From the NCBI RefSeq assembly GCF_000372065.1, contig NZ_AQVB01000014.1, forward strand, positions 1 through 64,000: a stretch of DNA of 64,000 nt, given 5' to 3'. The position numbers and the translations under genes are program-made. This document shows positions 3,734-20,242 of the stretch, piece after piece (position 1 is the stretch's first letter; every line of letters starts with the position of its first letter). Under the pieces are notes generated by a model, which was given only the letters and a program-made list of their open reading frames with translations, did not search any database and was not told where the DNA came from. The stretch is from Oligella urethralis DSM 7531 (GTDB lineage: Bacteria > Pseudomonadota > Gammaproteobacteria > Burkholderiales > Burkholderiaceae_B).

Positions 3734-6214
3734 ATGATTGTGAGTAATCGCAAAGCAGATTTAGACGCCGAAATCCCTTTATTACTGATACCGGGCGATC
3801 AGGCCTCTGCCTATGATCCGGATGTACCAAGCCGTGAGGATATTCTGGCGTATTTTAGAGCGCATACTGATGGCCTTGCCTTAGATGATTTGATAGCGCA
3901 CTTTAGGGTCGAGCGCGAAGCCACTTTGATTGGTCTGAAGCGTCGCTTGACGGCAATGGCACGTGACGGTCAGTTAATCACCCGTGCTGGTGTTTGGCAT
4001 ATGGTCAAATCCAATCCGGCCATTTTAGAAGGTAGGATTCAAGGTCACCGTGACGGTTTCGGCTTTTTTATCCCGGACAACCCAGAGTTGCCGGATATTT
4101 TTTTACCACCCATTGAAATGCGCAAGGTATTGCACGGTGATCGGGTGCGTGTTAATCCCACGGGCAACTATAAGGGTAAGTTAGAGGGCAGTATTGTTGA
4201 GGTGTTGGAGCGTGGCACCACTGCCTTAGTGGGACGATTATTGCACGAGGACGGTGGTTATGTGGTGGTGCCTGAGGATCGTCGCATTAAGCATGATGTG
4301 TATATTGCACCTGGTGATTTAGGCGGTGCGGTGCATGGTCAGGTCGTGAGCTGTGAAATTATCCGTCAACCGAGTCGCCACTTGCCACCGCAGGGCAAAA
4401 TCACTGAGATACTCGGAGAGATAGATGACCCCGGTATGGAGATTGAGATTGCGGTGCGTAAATTTGATGTGCCGCATCAATTTAGTGAAGCGACTTTAGC
4501 CGAAGCAGCTAAACTACCGACGCGGGTGATGGCGGCCGATCTGCAGGGGCGGGTAGACCTGCGTGAGGTGCCATTTTTTACCATTGACGGTGAGGATGCA
4601 CGTGATTTTGACGATGCTGTGTATGGTGAGCTAACGGAGATTCCTAGCGGTCGTGGCAGCAAGCAGGCATGGCGTTTATTAGTCGCCATTGCCGACGTGT
4701 CGCATTATGTTAAACCAGATCATCCTATTGATGAGGATGCCTTGGAGCGGGGTACTAGTGTGTATTTTCCGCGCCGAGTGATACCAATGCTCCCCGAAAG
4801 TTTGTCTAACGGCATCTGCTCTTTAAATCCGCATGAGGATCGTTTGGTCTTAGTGTGTGACATGATCGTGCATGCTAGCGGTGCGCATGCTGGCACGGTG
4901 CAGGGGTATCAGTTTTATCCGGCGGTGATTTGCTCACACGCTCGTACCACCTATACCCAGGTCTGGAATATGATTCAGCAGCCAGATGGACCGACGGCTA
5001 GGGAGTTTGCCGAGATCAAAGAACAGGTGCTACAGCTGTATGAGTTATATCAGCTGTTTGCGCAGCAACGAGTGAATCGTGGCGCCATGGATTTTGATAC
5101 GGTGGAGACGCAAATTATCTGCAATGAGATGGGTAAGATTGAGCAGATTGTACCCTTACATCGCAATCATGCGCACCGGATGATTGAGGAGTTTATGTTG
5201 GCGGCCAACACTTGCGCTGCTGATTTTCTGACGCGTCATAAGCGCTTGGGTCTTTATCGCGTGCATGAGAGCTCAACGCCTGAAAAACTAGGTCAATTAC
5301 GTGAGTATCTGCGTGCTTTGGGATTGCATTTGGGCGGTGGTGATGAGCCAAGTAGCTTGGATTTTTCAGCCCTCTTGGCTAAAGCCAAGGAGCGTGAGGA
5401 TTATGAAGTGATCCAAACCATGATTATGCGCTCCATGTCGCAGGCGATTTATACCCCAGAAAACTCTGGTCATTTTGGCTTAGCTTATAGCGATTATGCG
5501 CATTTTACTTCGCCGATCCGACGCTATCCGGATTTGTTGAATCATCGGGTGATTAAGGCGACCTTAAATCGTCGCAAATACACTCCCAAGGCAGACGGCG
5601 TTGTGCGCGCTAAGGGTGAACCGCTCAAAGAGTATGAGTTCAGTGTGTGGGATCGTTTAGGGGTGGTGCTGTCGGCGCATGAGCGTCGTGCAGATGAGGC
5701 TTCCTATGATGTGCAGGCCTGGTTAAAGTGCTGGTATGTGCGTGAGCATATCGGTGGCGTCTTTAGCGGCAAGGTAACCGGTGTCACCAGTTTTGGATTA
5801 TTTGTGACTTTGGATAGTTTGTATGTTGAAGGCTTAGTGCATATTTCTGAATTGGGTTCTGAGTACTTTCAATATAATGAGGCGATGCATGAGTTACGGG
5901 GTGAGCGTACGGGTAAGCGTTATCGCTTAACGGATGAAGTACATGTGCAAATTAGTCGGGTTGATTTGGAGGCTAGACGCATTGATTTTAGCTTGGTTAA
6001 AAACCCCCTAAGCTACGAGGCGGTGCAGCGCGAGATTCAACGAGGCGGTGAGGAACCGAGTCGACGCTATAAAAAACCCGCCAAGCCTAAACCCGAAGCA
6101 TTGCGTGGCACAACGGCTAAGCAACGGCGTGAGGCACAACGCCAAGCGGCTAAGAAAAAAGCCGCCGCTGCTCGTAGTAAAAGTAGTAAGAAGTCCGGCC
6201 GAAAATCACGTTAA
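3734..6214 (+). CDS. rnr: Ribonuclease R, 3'-5' exoribonuclease
   Basis: 826 residues, the usual RNase R size. The order is an N-terminal winged-helix-like segment (about 20-90), two cold-shock/OB domains, the RNB catalytic domain, an S1 domain (about 670-760) and a Lys/Arg/Ala-rich basic tail. The RNB active site reads DGEDARDFDDA, with the metal-binding aspartates at 285, 291, 293 and 294. It degrades structured RNA processively and takes part in rRNA and mRNA quality control. rlmB follows after 21 bases, an old proteobacterial pairing (rnr-rlmB). GTG at 3740 is an alternative start. Confidence 0.97.
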   Translation: MIVSNRKADLDAEIPLLLIPGDQASAYDPDVPSREDILAYFRAHTDGLALDDLIAHFRVEREATLIGLKRRLTAMARDGQLITRAGVWHMVKSNPAILEGRIQGHRDGFGFFIPDNPELPDIFLPPIEMRKVLHGDRVRVNPTGNYKGKLEGSIVEVLERGTTALVGRLLHEDGGYVVVPEDRRIKHDVYIAPGDLGGAVHGQVVSCEIIRQPSRHLPPQGKITEILGEIDDPGMEIEIAVRKFDVPHQFSEATLAEAAKLPTRVMAADLQGRVDLREVPFFTIDGEDARDFDDAVYGELTEIPSGRGSKQAWRLLVAIADVSHYVKPDHPIDEDALERGTSVYFPRRVIPMLPESLSNGICSLNPHEDRLVLVCDMIVHASGAHAGTVQGYQFYPAVICSHARTTYTQVWNMIQQPDGPTAREFAEIKEQVLQLYELYQLFAQQRVNRGAMDFDTVETQIICNEMGKIEQIVPLHRNHAHRMIEEFMLAANTCAADFLTRHKRLGLYRVHESSTPEKLGQLREYLRALGLHLGGGDEPSSLDFSALLAKAKEREDYEVIQTMIMRSMSQAIYTPENSGHFGLAYSDYAHFTSPIRRYPDLLNHRVIKATLNRRKYTPKADGVVRAKGEPLKEYEFSVWDRLGVVLSAHERRADEASYDVQAWLKCWYVREHIGGVFSGKVTGVTSFGLFVTLDSLYVEGLVHISELGSEYFQYNEAMHELRGERTGKRYRLTDEVHVQISRVDLEARRIDFSLVKNPLSYEAVQREIQRGGEEPSRRYKKPAKPKPEALRGTTAKQRREAQRQAAKKKAAAARSKSSKKSGRKSR

Positions 6215-8548: not shown

Positions 8549-8839
8549 ATGAATAAGACAGAGTTAATCGAAGCAATCGCTAACGAAGCTGAAATTTCTA
8601 AAGCAGCTGCAGGCCGTGCATTAGATGCCATGATCAACCAAGTTAAAGCGTCATTACAAGCGGGTGAGGCTGTTACTTTAATTGGTTTCGGTACATTTGA
8701 TACTTCTGTTCGTGCAGCACGTACTGGTCGTAATCCACAAACCGGCGCTGAGATTAAAATCGCTGAGGCCGTTGTGCCTAAATTCCGTCCGGGTAAAGCA
8801 CTTAAGGATGCGGTTAACAGCAAGAAGAAGAAAAAGTAA
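8549..8839 (+). CDS. hupB: DNA-binding protein HU (beta-type)
   Basis: 96 residues, the full HU fold. It starts [11 protein letters not shown], has the GFGTF turn, the arm region R.GRNPQTG and the core [14 protein letters not shown], and ends in a Lys run. HU dimers bend and coat DNA and help DnaA-dependent replication start. It is monocistronic, with its own strong promoter upstream and a hairpin terminator directly after it. A typical IHF (longer, different arm) is less likely because the R.GRNPQTG arm and K-rich end are HU-like. Confidence 0.95.
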
Positions 8840-16826: not shown

Positions 16827-17006
16827 CTACTTCGATTTCAGTGTAGCGCTATCAATCGCACGCTCGGGTAGCAAAATAGGCAGCCCATTTTCGATAGGGT
16901 AGGCCTTGCCATTTTTATCACAAATTAGGTAGTTGCGATCCTCGCTTAGGCGTAGCGGTGCTTTGGCAATAGGGCAAAGCAATTTTTTAGTAATTAGTTC
17001 GTGCAT
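16827..17006 (-). CDS. Trm112-family small protein (YcaR-like)
   Basis: A 59-residue gene, shorter than most ORF cut-offs. It starts MHELITKKLLCP and has a zinc-ribbon-like skeleton with two cysteines (C11 in LLCPIAK and C29 in LICDKNG). AYPIENGLPILLPERA then closes it, the usual end of bacterial Trm112/YcaR proteins. The second Cys of each normal CxxC pair is absent (CPIA, CDKN), as is common for bacterial members. Its place between lpxK and kdsB is conserved in proteobacteria. Its biochemical role in bacteria is unclear. The eukaryotic homologue activates methyltransferases. Confidence 0.9.
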   Translation of the reverse strand: MHELITKKLLCPIAKAPLRLSEDRNYLICDKNGKAYPIENGLPILLPERAIDSATLKSK

Positions 17007-17045
17007 TTTTTTAATTGATTCAACAAATAGAGGCTTAAGTATAAG

Positions 17046-18113
17046 TCAATTCTGAATCAGTTGCTCAACCCTATCGAAGAATTTGCTATCTGAAAATTCT
17101 GCGCGCACTTTTAAAAACCAAAAACGGGCATCGGCAAAGTCGCGACATTTGATGGCATCCTTTTCCGTCATTAGAATAATTTCTTCTTGTATTCCACTAA
17201 AATCCGCCGCGCTAAAGGCATGATGGTCAGGAAAAGCGAGTTGCTTTTGCATAGGGATTTGCAGTTCTTTTAAGCTGTTAAAAAAACGTTGTGGATTACC
17301 AATACCGGCTAAGGCAGCGATAGGGCGGTGTTGGAACTGCGCTTGCCACGCTGCGACGGCGATGGATTCACCGCTTTGCAGATTGATCATGTCGGTCGGA
17401 CTTAAGTGCATCGCTAGCTGATAAGGCTTAGTCGTTGAGCTTGAGCTGGCACTGGGTGCGAGTTTGTGGTTGCGATTGGTGATAATAAAATCGACTTCAG
17501 CAAGCTTGTCGGCAGATTCTCTTAATGGACCCGCAGGTAAAAGACGACCATTGCCAATGCCACGCTCATCCTGCAGCAGGATTTCTACGTCACGATGCAA
17601 GGCGAGATGTTGTAAGCCATCGTCAGCAATAATCACATCAGTCTGGGGGTAGTGGGCGAGCAGGGCTTCAATTGCCAGAGCGCGTTTAGGGTGCACGGCA
17701 ATGGGTGCGTATTGCGCAAGCAGCGCTGGCTCATCACCAATAAGCTCGGCTTTAGCATGAGGGCCAGCGGCGAGCCTAGCCTCCTTGCCAATGCTTACCC
17801 CATACCCTCGGGAAATAATGCCAGGTACTCGACCTTTGCTTTTTAGGGCTTCTGTCAGCGCTGCCACGACTGGCGTTTTACCCGTGCCGCCAACGTAGAT
17901 GTTGCCCACGACAATCACGGGGCAGGGCGCCTGATAAACACGCAAACAGCCTGTTTGATAGAGTCGCTTTCTAAGCTTTTGAAGCGCGCCGTTGAGCGCT
18001 GCCAGGGGAAGTAGGGCTGTACTCAATGCACCACCACTTTGCCACTGCGCCTGCAAGCGCGTGCTGAGCGTGTTGTTCGATTGACTTGTGGTGGTGTAAG
18101 AATGCGTTTTCAT
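17046..18113 (-). CDS. lpxK: Tetraacyldisaccharide 4'-kinase
   Basis: 355 residues. A membrane-anchoring N-terminal part (about 28-60, ALLPLAALNGAL) is followed by the Walker A variant GNIYVGGTGKTPVV, DDGLQH (Walker-B-like/catalytic) and the C-terminal TEKDAIKC. It phosphorylates the 4'-position of the lipid A disaccharide at the inner face of the cytoplasmic membrane. It is the first gene of the lpxK-trm112-kdsB-adk run. In many proteobacteria exbB/exbD precede lpxK. Here that slot is the 731-bp non-coding DnaA-box region. Confidence 0.95.
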   Translation of the reverse strand: MKTHSYTTTSQSNNTLSTRLQAQWQSGGALSTALLPLAALNGALQKLRKRLYQTGCLRVYQAPCPVIVVGNIYVGGTGKTPVVAALTEALKSKGRVPGIISRGYGVSIGKEARLAAGPHAKAELIGDEPALLAQYAPIAVHPKRALAIEALLAHYPQTDVIIADDGLQHLALHRDVEILLQDERGIGNGRLLPAGPLRESADKLAEVDFIITNRNHKLAPSASSSSTTKPYQLAMHLSPTDMINLQSGESIAVAAWQAQFQHRPIAALAGIGNPQRFFNSLKELQIPMQKQLAFPDHHAFSAADFSGIQEEIILMTEKDAIKCRDFADARFWFLKVRAEFSDSKFFDRVEQLIQN

Positions 18114-18137
18114 TGGACAATCAATTAGCTAGGGAAC

Positions 18138-18172
18138 TTACCCACAAAAGCTGTGGATAACTTTGTGAATAA
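18138..18172 (+). repeat. DnaA-box cluster 1 (repeat unit A)
   Basis: TTACCCACA (18138-18146, one mismatch, inverted), TGTGGATAA (18152-18160) and TGTGAATAA (18164-18172) in 35 bases. The 20-base core TGTGGATAACTTTGTGAATA recurs exactly at 18587. The 13-base element TTATACGTANCCT lies 19 bases further on in both copies (18191 and 18626). Confidence 0.85.
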
Positions 18173-18258
18173 ATCACAAGATGTCTGTTATTATACGTAG
18201 CCTAGCGATGATTGTTCAATTACTGGGCAAAATCTCAAAAATGGAATTTACTATTTAA

Positions 18259-18271
18259 AATCAATAGCTTG
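18259..18271 (+). promoter_or_regulatory. IHF-consensus site between the two DnaA-box clusters
   Basis: AATCAATAGCTTG matches the IHF consensus WATCAANNNNTTR at every fixed position. IHF or HU bending between DnaA sites is a known part of origin unwinding in proteobacteria. Here the position is seen but the function is inferred. Confidence 0.45.
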
Positions 18272-18572
18272 TGATGGTTTTATTAAGCGAAGCTTGAGGA
18301 GGTTGCTGTAAACTAGCTGTTTCTTGATAAAAAACAGACATTCTCTTAGCTTGTGGACAACTTCAAATAATTTTTAGAAAAAAGCGTTGATACTACCGAA
18401 TAAAATCGCATCAAGCAATCGCTATAATTAATTTTCAAAAAAATCCTCCATCTCATCATTTTTTAAGAATTCTTGTAAGATAGTAGAAGCCAAATAGGGG
18501 TGAAGTTTGAGGATGTACGTGTAAGTGCTTAGTTTCATGAGCGCTTTTGGGATTTGATTTTGTAAAAATCAT

Positions 18573-18607
18573 TAATCCACAAAAAATGTGGATAACTTTG
18601 TGAATAA
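18573..18607 (+). repeat. DnaA-box cluster 2 (repeat unit B)
   Basis: TAATCCACA (one mismatch, inverted), TGTGGATAA (18587-18595) and TGTGAATAA (18599-18607), with the same order and spacing as cluster 1. The AT-rich segment after 18655 lies just downstream, where an unwinding element would be expected. Confidence 0.85.
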
Positions 18608-18844
18608 CTTAGCGAGTATCCGTAGTTATACGTATCCTCAGGGCAGTTGCTTAAAAAGGGCGCAATATTTTTGAAATATTAATATACCTTATTTTTCAAT
18701 AGTTTATGGGGATTTATTAAGGTATTAAATTAGAATTGAGCGCTAAGGAATCAATTTTTTCTGTGTTAAACCACTATTTTCGCAGTTGTGGAAAAGTAAT
18801 TGTCTTTTTTAATAAATGAGTGGATTTTTGCGTAATTATTTGCT

Positions 18845-20242
18845 ATGGACTTGGAAAAAGTACTTTCTGTTACAGAATTAAGTCATCTGATTAGTCAAAC
18901 CTTGGAGTATCAACTACCCCTATTCCGGGTGGAAGGCGAAATCTCTCAAATCACCAAAGCCTCTTCAGGGCATTATTACTTTTCGATAAAAGATGAGTTT
19001 AGTGCTATGAATGCAGTGATGTTTCGCGGGCGTGCGATGGCCTTGGATTTTCAGCCGAAACAGGGGGATATGGTTGAGCTCAAAGGCAAGTTGTCTTTAT
19101 TTGCGGCCAGAGGTTCTTTGCAAATTCAGGTCGACGAGATGCGGCGCGCGGGTCTAGGCACGCTCTTTGAGCGCTATTTGCAGATACTGGATAAGCTTAA
19201 AAAAGAGGGCTTATTTGATGAAGATCGTAAACTCGCCATTCCCGCCTATCCTCGGCGCGTGGGCATTATTACATCCTTACAGGCCGCTGCCTTACACGAT
19301 GTGCTAACAGCGTTAAGGCGTCGAGCGCCGCAATTTCAAGTGACGATTTATTCTAGTTTGGTGCAGGGGGCAGAAGCGGTTGATGCATTGATGCGAGCCT
19401 TAGCGCAGGCTGAATTACGTCAGGAAGTGGATGTGATTTTACTGGTGCGGGGTGGTGGTAGTTTAGAAGATCTATGGTGCTTTAATGATGAGCGCCTTGC
19501 GCGTATGATAGCCGCTTGTACGATACCGATTGTGAGCGGGGTAGGGCATGAGACGGATGTGACTATTGCGGACTATGTGGCCGACTTACGTGCGGCAACG
19601 CCCACGGCGGCGGCTGAGCTTATTAGTAAAGCGGCCTATACCTTACCAGCGATCTTAAAGGATTATCATCAGCGGATTGGTCGGGTGATGCTGCAGCTGC
19701 TAGCTGAGCGACAAGCTCGTTTTGATGAATTGCAGCCACGTTTAAATCGTCATATGGAACGTATTTTGCTAGATAAAAGCTTGCGTTATGATGAGTTACA
19801 GCAGCGTTTAGTGGCACCGCAACGTTTATTGACGCAATATGATGCACAACGCCTACAAATGCAACAAGCGTTGCAACGTCAATGGCTTAATTTATTTACA
19901 AATAAACACAAGCTATTGGAGGGGTTATGTTTGCGTTTAGCATCTAGAAAGCCTAATATAGAAGTAGAGTGCGATCGCTTAAGCCAGTGGCAGGAGCGAC
20001 TCCATCGAGCCGTTGCGCAGCAATTAAAAACTCATCAACAAGTATTTGAGCAACAACGTCAGCTGTTGCATAATATGAATCCGAAGCAGGTTTTGCAGCG
20101 CGGATTTTCCATTGTGTATGATGCTGAGGGACAGGTAGTCCGAGATGCGGATCAATTGCGCGTTGATGATGAGCTTCAGTTAGAGTTTGCCAGCGGTCGT
20201 GCTGCAGTACATGTCAAATCATTAAATTTTAAGGAGCAATGA
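18845..20242 (+). CDS. xseA: Exodeoxyribonuclease VII large subunit
   Basis: 465 residues. An N-terminal OB-fold DNA-binding domain (about 5-105, beginning SVTELSHLISQTLE) is followed by the catalytic domain with RVGIITS, RGGGSLEDLW and GVGHETDVTIADYVAD-type motifs. A long coiled coil (about 270-430) comes next, and the C-terminal RGFSIVYD segment. With XseB it degrades single-stranded DNA to oligonucleotides in repair. It is the first gene right of the DnaA-box region. sodB follows after 3 bases. Confidence 0.96.
   Translation: MDLEKVLSVTELSHLISQTLEYQLPLFRVEGEISQITKASSGHYYFSIKDEFSAMNAVMFRGRAMALDFQPKQGDMVELKGKLSLFAARGSLQIQVDEMRRAGLGTLFERYLQILDKLKKEGLFDEDRKLAIPAYPRRVGIITSLQAAALHDVLTALRRRAPQFQVTIYSSLVQGAEAVDALMRALAQAELRQEVDVILLVRGGGSLEDLWCFNDERLARMIAACTIPIVSGVGHETDVTIADYVADLRAATPTAAAELISKAAYTLPAILKDYHQRIGRVMLQLLAERQARFDELQPRLNRHMERILLDKSLRYDELQQRLVAPQRLLTQYDAQRLQMQQALQRQWLNLFTNKHKLLEGLCLRLASRKPNIEVECDRLSQWQERLHRAVAQQLKTHQQVFEQQRQLLHNMNPKQVLQRGFSIVYDAEGQVVRDADQLRVDDELQLEFASGRAAVHVKSLNFKEQ

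Follow-up and report, generated by a model that had tools for sequence, protein, structure and literature searches.

What is understood of how active DnaA is regenerated ahead of each replication round comes mainly from Escherichia coli. According to the accessible parts of two papers, the core of a DnaA-reactivating sequence (DARS) consists of three uniquely arranged DnaA boxes, of which I and II are oppositely oriented and thereby let ADP-DnaA molecules meet head-to-head (PMC8682772; PMC10380432). In the available sections of Kasho 2014 conservation of the DARS2 core is stated to be specific to E. coli-related gammaproteobacteria (PMC4245941), those of one review mention conservation in E. 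coli-proximal beta- or gammaproteobacteria (PMC5742627), and those of another, citing Fujimitsu 2009, describe DARS1- and DARS2-like sequences as conserved in many proteobacteria (PMC10380432). The occurrence of DARS-like sequences in many proteobacteria is already in print; loci at xseA or priA were not found described in open-access listings, whose titles and abstract openings yielded no paper on DARS at either gene or in any betaproteobacterium. Here, we describe a gap before xseA that, judged from its sequence, is probably a tandemly duplicated DARS-type locus.

The window, by which we mean the whole analysed stretch of 64,000 nucleotides (C14:1-64000), belongs to a 2.31-Mb genome in 46 contigs. 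Its 731-bp intergenic gap at 18114-18844 separates the divergent genes lpxK (minus strand) and xseA (plus strand), both over their TIGR cut-offs, and carries the following features, with offsets counted from the core starts:

17046-18113, minus strand: lpxK, flanking gene (TIGR00682, 252 bits against a cut-off of 92)
18138-18172, plus strand: DARS-type core, copy 1 (box scan; one mismatch to the core pattern)
18138-18146, plus strand: copy 1 box I, TTACCCACA (box scan)
18152-18160, minus strand: copy 1 box II, TTATCCACA (box scan)
18164-18172, minus strand: copy 1 box III, TTATTCACA (box scan)
18191-18203, plus strand: TACGTA-centred motif of copy 1, TTATACGTAGCCT (sequence position)
18214-18228, no strand assigned: low-confidence Fis-consensus match GTTCAATTACTGGGC, at +76 of core 1 (consensus scan)
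18259-18271, plus strand: IHF site 1, AATCAATAGCTTG, exact consensus, at +121 from core 1 (consensus scan)
18573-18607, plus strand: DARS-type core, copy 2, at -272 from the xseA start (box scan)
18573-18581, plus strand: copy 2 box I, TAATCCACA (box scan)
18587-18595, minus strand: copy 2 box II, TTATCCACA (box scan)
18599-18607, minus strand: copy 2 box III, TTATTCACA (box scan)
18626-18638, plus strand: TACGTA-centred motif, copy 2 counterpart, TTATACGTATCCT (sequence position)
18694-18706, plus strand: IHF-like site 2, TTTCAATAGTTTA, one mismatch, at +121 from core 2 (consensus scan)
18845-20242, plus strand: xseA, flanking gene and conserved neighbour of the core in relatives (TIGR00237, 449 bits against a cut-off of 180)

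Both copies place their boxes at offsets of 0, +14 and +26 on the plus, minus and minus strands, with boxes I and II opposed. The sequence bears out the two identically arranged three-box clusters, 435 bp apart, that the first-pass annotation had reported, together with the divergent flanking genes, the full IHF consensus between the clusters, the motif that begins 19 bases after each (18 bases separate it from box III in both copies), and the AT-rich stretch behind the second (18660-18844, 74% AT, in a gap of 68% AT). The one-mismatch IHF site of copy 2, which had gone unmentioned, shares the +121 offset of the exact site in copy 1. The sequence TGTGGATAANNNNGTGNATAA occurs three times in the genome, two of these in the gap, and its reversed form nowhere. 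The motif about 53 bp into both copies, TTATACGTANCCT, is centred on TACGTA; a similar sequence is kept in most of the own-genus copies printed, is absent in L170/G004, and is not kept in the other families printed.

DARS1 in the bioD-uvrB gap, DARS2 in the ygdT-mutH gap, and datA, all from E. coli MG1655, served as references. The boxes of DARS1 and DARS2 lie at 0 (plus), +14 (minus) and +26 (minus), identical to both window copies. DARS2 further resembles the window copies in having a plus-strand IHF-consensus match downstream and a core that points to the next gene. However, its IHF matches are at +93 (minus strand) and +109 (plus strand), the latter shifted by 9-12 bp relative to the +118 to +121 of xseA-type sites; from their position, the two would correspond to the published IBS1-2. 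The published Fis sites of DARS2 lie beyond IHF and are not evident in the window, whose single, low-confidence Fis-consensus match falls in copy 1 between core and IHF; copy 2 has none from +35 to +149 of its core. DARS2 has a single core with a mutH-side neighbour, whereas the window has two cores and xseA. DARS1 shares the core geometry, with two mismatches to the core pattern, and like the window core lies upstream of a DNA repair gene, but it is present in single copy and shows no IHF-consensus match (at most one mismatch) from -150 to +480 of its core. At datA, DnaA boxes likewise share a non-coding gap with IHF, whose role there is taken from excerpts of the literature; the datA region nevertheless lacks the 0/+14/+26 layout, its best match to the core pattern having six mismatches, and an identity with datA was rejected on box layout. 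Among the roles the first-pass annotation had offered, oriC or a DARS- or datA-like site, the DARS-like one thus gains from the box geometry, the datA-like one becomes less likely on layout, and oriC falls on skew, a better candidate elsewhere and distance from dnaA, as set out below.

If the E. coli scheme applies, ADP-DnaA on the opposed boxes I and II would meet head-to-head, an encounter that box III would assist, and IHF would bend the DNA downstream of the core; ADP would then leave, and the apo-DnaA set free could take up ATP and initiate the following round at oriC. By this analogy, we infer that the DNA of the gap supports ADP-ATP exchange on DnaA. The genome encodes DnaA, IhfA and IhfB over cut-off, and homologues of Hda and Fis below their curated cut-offs.

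Could such an arrangement arise by chance? Single elements are not rare: the window holds five exact DnaA boxes against 2.76 expected, four of them in the gap, and four IHF-consensus matches against 3.22 expected. The ordered three-box pattern with up to three mismatches, in contrast, has two matches in the window; 100 shuffles produced none. Across 80 named loci fetched by XseA alone, our least biased sample, the pattern (up to four mismatches) gives 70 core matches and none when reversed. Altering the spacing between boxes I and II to 4 or 6 leaves no match, altering that between II and III to 2 or 4 leaves three and one, respectively, and the combined I-II/II-III spacings 4/4 and 6/2 give none. 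A chance origin of the core arrangement was rejected on the shuffles and on these altered-spacing controls.

Conservation of the boxes in relatives, a check that the first-pass annotation had proposed, holds in that the core is kept in its own genus, family and order. Both copies are present in five of seven other genomes of the genus (G001, G003, G005, G006, G007); G004 has one xseA core, and in G002 cores were seen only beside malate synthase. Mean column conservation across 13 own-genus copies is 0.99 for box II, 0.97 for box III and 0.87 for box I, against 0.53 for the upstream flank. At family level the core occurs in 168 of 200 genomes (38 of 43 genera), with XseA adjoining it in 26 of 30 loci fetched among the matches listed; a looser pattern finds it in 250 of 300 genomes of the order (122 of 140 genera), and 103 of 140 class genomes carry it. 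The reversed core pattern was found in no family, order or class genome searched, nor did the order-level pattern with one extra base between boxes I and II match in reverse. Core and IHF site together, without any mismatch, occur in 22 of 299 genomes of the phylum, of which three, from a single genus, lie outside the class, and never in reverse. A blastn search of the gap against 5426 E. coli genomes gave weak short matches in only 13, the best at E of about 2.

The least biased sample also places the core. Assigned by record title, the 80 XseA-fetched loci comprise 49 usable beta- and 21 usable gammaproteobacterial loci, seven of unclear or other title, and three with too little upstream DNA. 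Among the beta loci, 38 of 49 have a core, which in 37 lies 150-360 bp before xseA; 28 of these 37 have an IHF match (at most one mismatch) at +118 to +121. The gamma loci have a core in one of 21 and IHF at that offset in none, and those of unclear or other title a core in three of seven, two of these with IHF at +118 to +121. The 11 coreless beta loci (L077, L084, L094, L095, L098, L099, L100, L105, L118, L131, L132) include Burkholderia and Paraburkholderia.

Core frequency is meaningless for L039-L068, L149-L205 and the second-site loci, because these were fetched for carrying a core. Pooling core-selected and unbiased loci, we began from 135 XseA-matching loci, of which 132 had enough sequence and 124 remained after near-identical ones were removed. 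In this mixed set a plus-strand core is found in 89 of the 124 regions, and five regions have in addition a minus-strand match, each with three mismatches. All 89 core-bearing loci have a plus-strand core, in 88 within 150-350 bp of xseA, the median position being -266. Six or seven tandem cores stand in the xseA upstream gap in eight loci (L069-L074, L076, L083), by title Undibacterium, Janthinobacterium, Herbaspirillum, Pseudoduganella and Duganella. IHF at +118 to +121 is confined there to the core closest to xseA, and seven of the eight loci have it. At one further site, L021 (G021:C1:644767), the core adjoins lpxK and the 3 kb examined contain no XseA match; apparently the site persisted there though xseA is not adjacent.

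The placement of IHF is similarly narrow. Of the 140 cores in the 89 xseA loci, 84 have their best IHF match between +85 and +160 at one mismatch or none; in 75 of the 84 this match falls at +118 to +121. In the two 15-bp bins from +105 to +134, IHF occurs in 40 and 37 of the 88 loci whose core is near xseA, against at most six in any bin of 30 shuffles, which preserved base composition only. The +75 bin likewise shows an excess of Fis-consensus matches, in 21 of 88 loci against a maximum of five in shuffles of the same kind, a count uncorrected for kinship, as are all these enrichment figures. Cores not chosen for IHF show the same offset, with 16 matches among 26 class cores (a usable core being present in 25 of 29 class loci) and 17 among 33 order cores, over a background of 0.12-0.18 per other 4-bp window and a highest count elsewhere of three.

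The reading of the gap as a duplicated DARS-type locus draws on the E. coli box geometry in both copies with IHF at +121, on the recurrence of the core-plus-IHF composite upstream of xseA in many betaproteobacteria, and on the sensitivity of the pattern to spacing, since only ten of the 300 order genomes match when one base is added between boxes I and II. Because similar signals adjoin xseA in many related bacteria, the gap seems to be a switch of replication timing, common to these bacteria and little described, and not an origin of replication. Set against the DARS reading are the mismatch in the IHF site of copy 2, the DARS2 matches at +93 and +109 instead of +121, the 11 of 49 beta xseA loci without a core, the cores beside malate synthase without IHF at +118 to +121, and the constant distance to xseA, which would equally fit control of that gene. 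Titration or xseA control is possible and would be compatible with a DARS role.

A DnaA-controlled operator, at which DnaA and IHF would tune exonuclease VII transcription with the cell cycle, would account for a core orientation constant in 89 of 89 loci and a distance within 150-350 bp in 88, and E. coli DARS1 and DARS2 themselves lie in the uvrB and mutH promoter regions, according to the available part of one paper (PMC5835720). We nonetheless consider such an operator quite unlikely as the explanation, as the same composite stands beside other genes, for example between hemE and priA, cores are also found between convergent genes, and a promoter scan of the gap gave three hits against 3.1 expected, which is chance level. 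Moreover, UvrB, MutH, XseA, DnaA and MnmG were found beside none of 29 class-wide cores in other gammaproteobacterial families; the neighbour of the core therefore differs by lineage.

Cores between convergent genes occur in the genome of the window itself. At C5:54831-55450 (L030), three cores about 292 bp apart lie between malate synthase and phoU, the third with one extra base; none has IHF near +121, and the convergent genes make a promoter role unlikely there. Cores adjoin malate synthase also in G002, G003 and G007 (L019, L034, L035). Such core-only arrays, the three at malate synthase-phoU and the six to seven at eight beta xseA loci, resemble dosage or sink devices, and this suits a datA-like function in which the boxes would sequester DnaA or, with IHF, promote DnaA-ATP hydrolysis and so delay re-initiation. 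High-affinity boxes together with IHF fit it as well, and DARS1, DARS2 and datA are reported to account for much of E. coli titration in the accessible text of one study (PMC12371093). Plain titration would not need an exact spacing, though, yet with one base added only 10 of 300 genomes match, down from 250, and the E. coli datA region does not have the 0/+14/+26 layout. We regard titration or hydrolysis as an unlikely main function of the gap.

A second site emerged from ten genomes that carry two or more cores, in which 20 core-bearing stretches were fetched. Eleven of these stretches, with 13 cores, lack XseA, and all 13 cores have IHF (at most one mismatch) at +118 to +121. Neighbouring genes were listed for ten of these eleven and identified by eye, with Pfam applied to the L216 pair alone. 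A uroporphyrinogen-decarboxylase ORF flanks one side in eight, five of which have a PriA ORF on the opposite side. We note L209, L212, L213, L216, L217, L224, L226 and L227 as hemE-side loci with core plus IHF. A PriA ORF also adjoins the core in two of seven class loci printed (L178, L186). Upstream of priA in the genus of the window, neither a core (up to five mismatches) nor an exact box was found in four of four genomes (G000, the genome of the window, G001, G004, G007). Among seven other genomes of the family, three retain what is left of boxes II and III, accompanied by an IHF-like site at +119, and no core was found in four. The priA-side site has probably eroded in the family, while the xseA site doubled in most of the genus. 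This doubling could keep up the dose of reactivating DNA where the hemE-priA site is missing.

These data lead us to a broader proposal, to which we give about even weight: DNA-encoded reactivation of DnaA may be ancestral to beta- and gammaproteobacteria and may have rested on one composite, an opposed three-box core with IHF at +118 to +121. E. coli DARS2 would derive from it, its IHF lying closer to the core by about one helical turn; many betaproteobacteria would keep two sites, before xseA and beside priA, and lineages would tune the dose by losing or multiplying cores, with the priA-side site gone and the xseA site doubled here and six to seven cores in some Janthinobacterium relatives. 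That a fixed composite recurs at equivalent positions across many betaproteobacteria suggests an old control on which selection acts. Does the amount of reactivating DNA set the timing of initiation? Loci with one, two or six to seven cores are natural dose variants for this question, and the coordinates given here are exact enough to test DnaA reactivation control in many genera.

The gap also has features that would be expected of a chromosomal origin: clustered boxes, IHF and AT-rich DNA. GC skew, to which the first-pass annotation had looked for a decision, is mostly positive on either side of the gap, with shallow dips over minus-strand genes and no switch in the window. On C32, by contrast, skew values of -0.19 to -0.03 give way near 6 kb to values of +0.09 to +0.20. 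This comes close to what that annotation had named as evidence against its reading, a switch at another locus with its own box cluster, together with peak coverage there and no DnaA binding at the gap. This region (G000:C32:5900-8100, L008) has an exact parS at 5943, two imperfect parS and seven exact DnaA boxes upstream of mnmG near its start, with rsmG, parA and parB following mnmG (genes named by eye). It shares the TGTGGATAACTTTGTGGATAA box pair with the window cores, but its box I position is not a box, leaving six mismatches to the core pattern, and unlike them it has parS and a skew change. The stretch upstream of mnmG on C32, on a different contig from dnaA (C16), is probably the better oriC candidate, and no more than a candidate: genes change direction where the skew does, and three boxes also lie in the rpmH-dnaA gap of C16. 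In the single-contig relatives G012, G027 and G030, the xseA-linked cores lie 39, 36 and 27% of the chromosome from dnaA. An oriC at the gap was rejected on the skew, the C32 candidate and these distances, and we hold it to be extremely improbable. Cores of G008, G014, G021 and G038, whose neighbour is not established as xseA, are 31-45% from dnaA; the second-site core of G030 is only 1.8% away, which speaks against a general distance rule. The dnaA search also took in G009 and G015, whose cores are not among the positions listed.

Other contents of the gap were considered as well. A structured RNA was rejected, an Rfam scan of 17000-19500 giving no family at gathering score, and so was a hidden gene, no ORF wholly within the gap exceeding 38 aa. 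Elsewhere in the window, an HU-family gene lies at 8549-8818, with HU-beta as best match at 131 bits, under the curated cut-off of 157.

Finally, the first-pass annotation had suggested that the region may have taken the place of exbB-exbD or arisen once these were lost. This does not agree with the family, in which the core coexists with ExbB- and ExbD-like ORFs at three of the four loci read: in L045, L060 and L022 these ORFs, called with Pfam for the L060 pair only, stand between lpxK and the core-bearing gap, and the replacement was rejected. In the fourth, L052, LpxK directly adjoins the gap.
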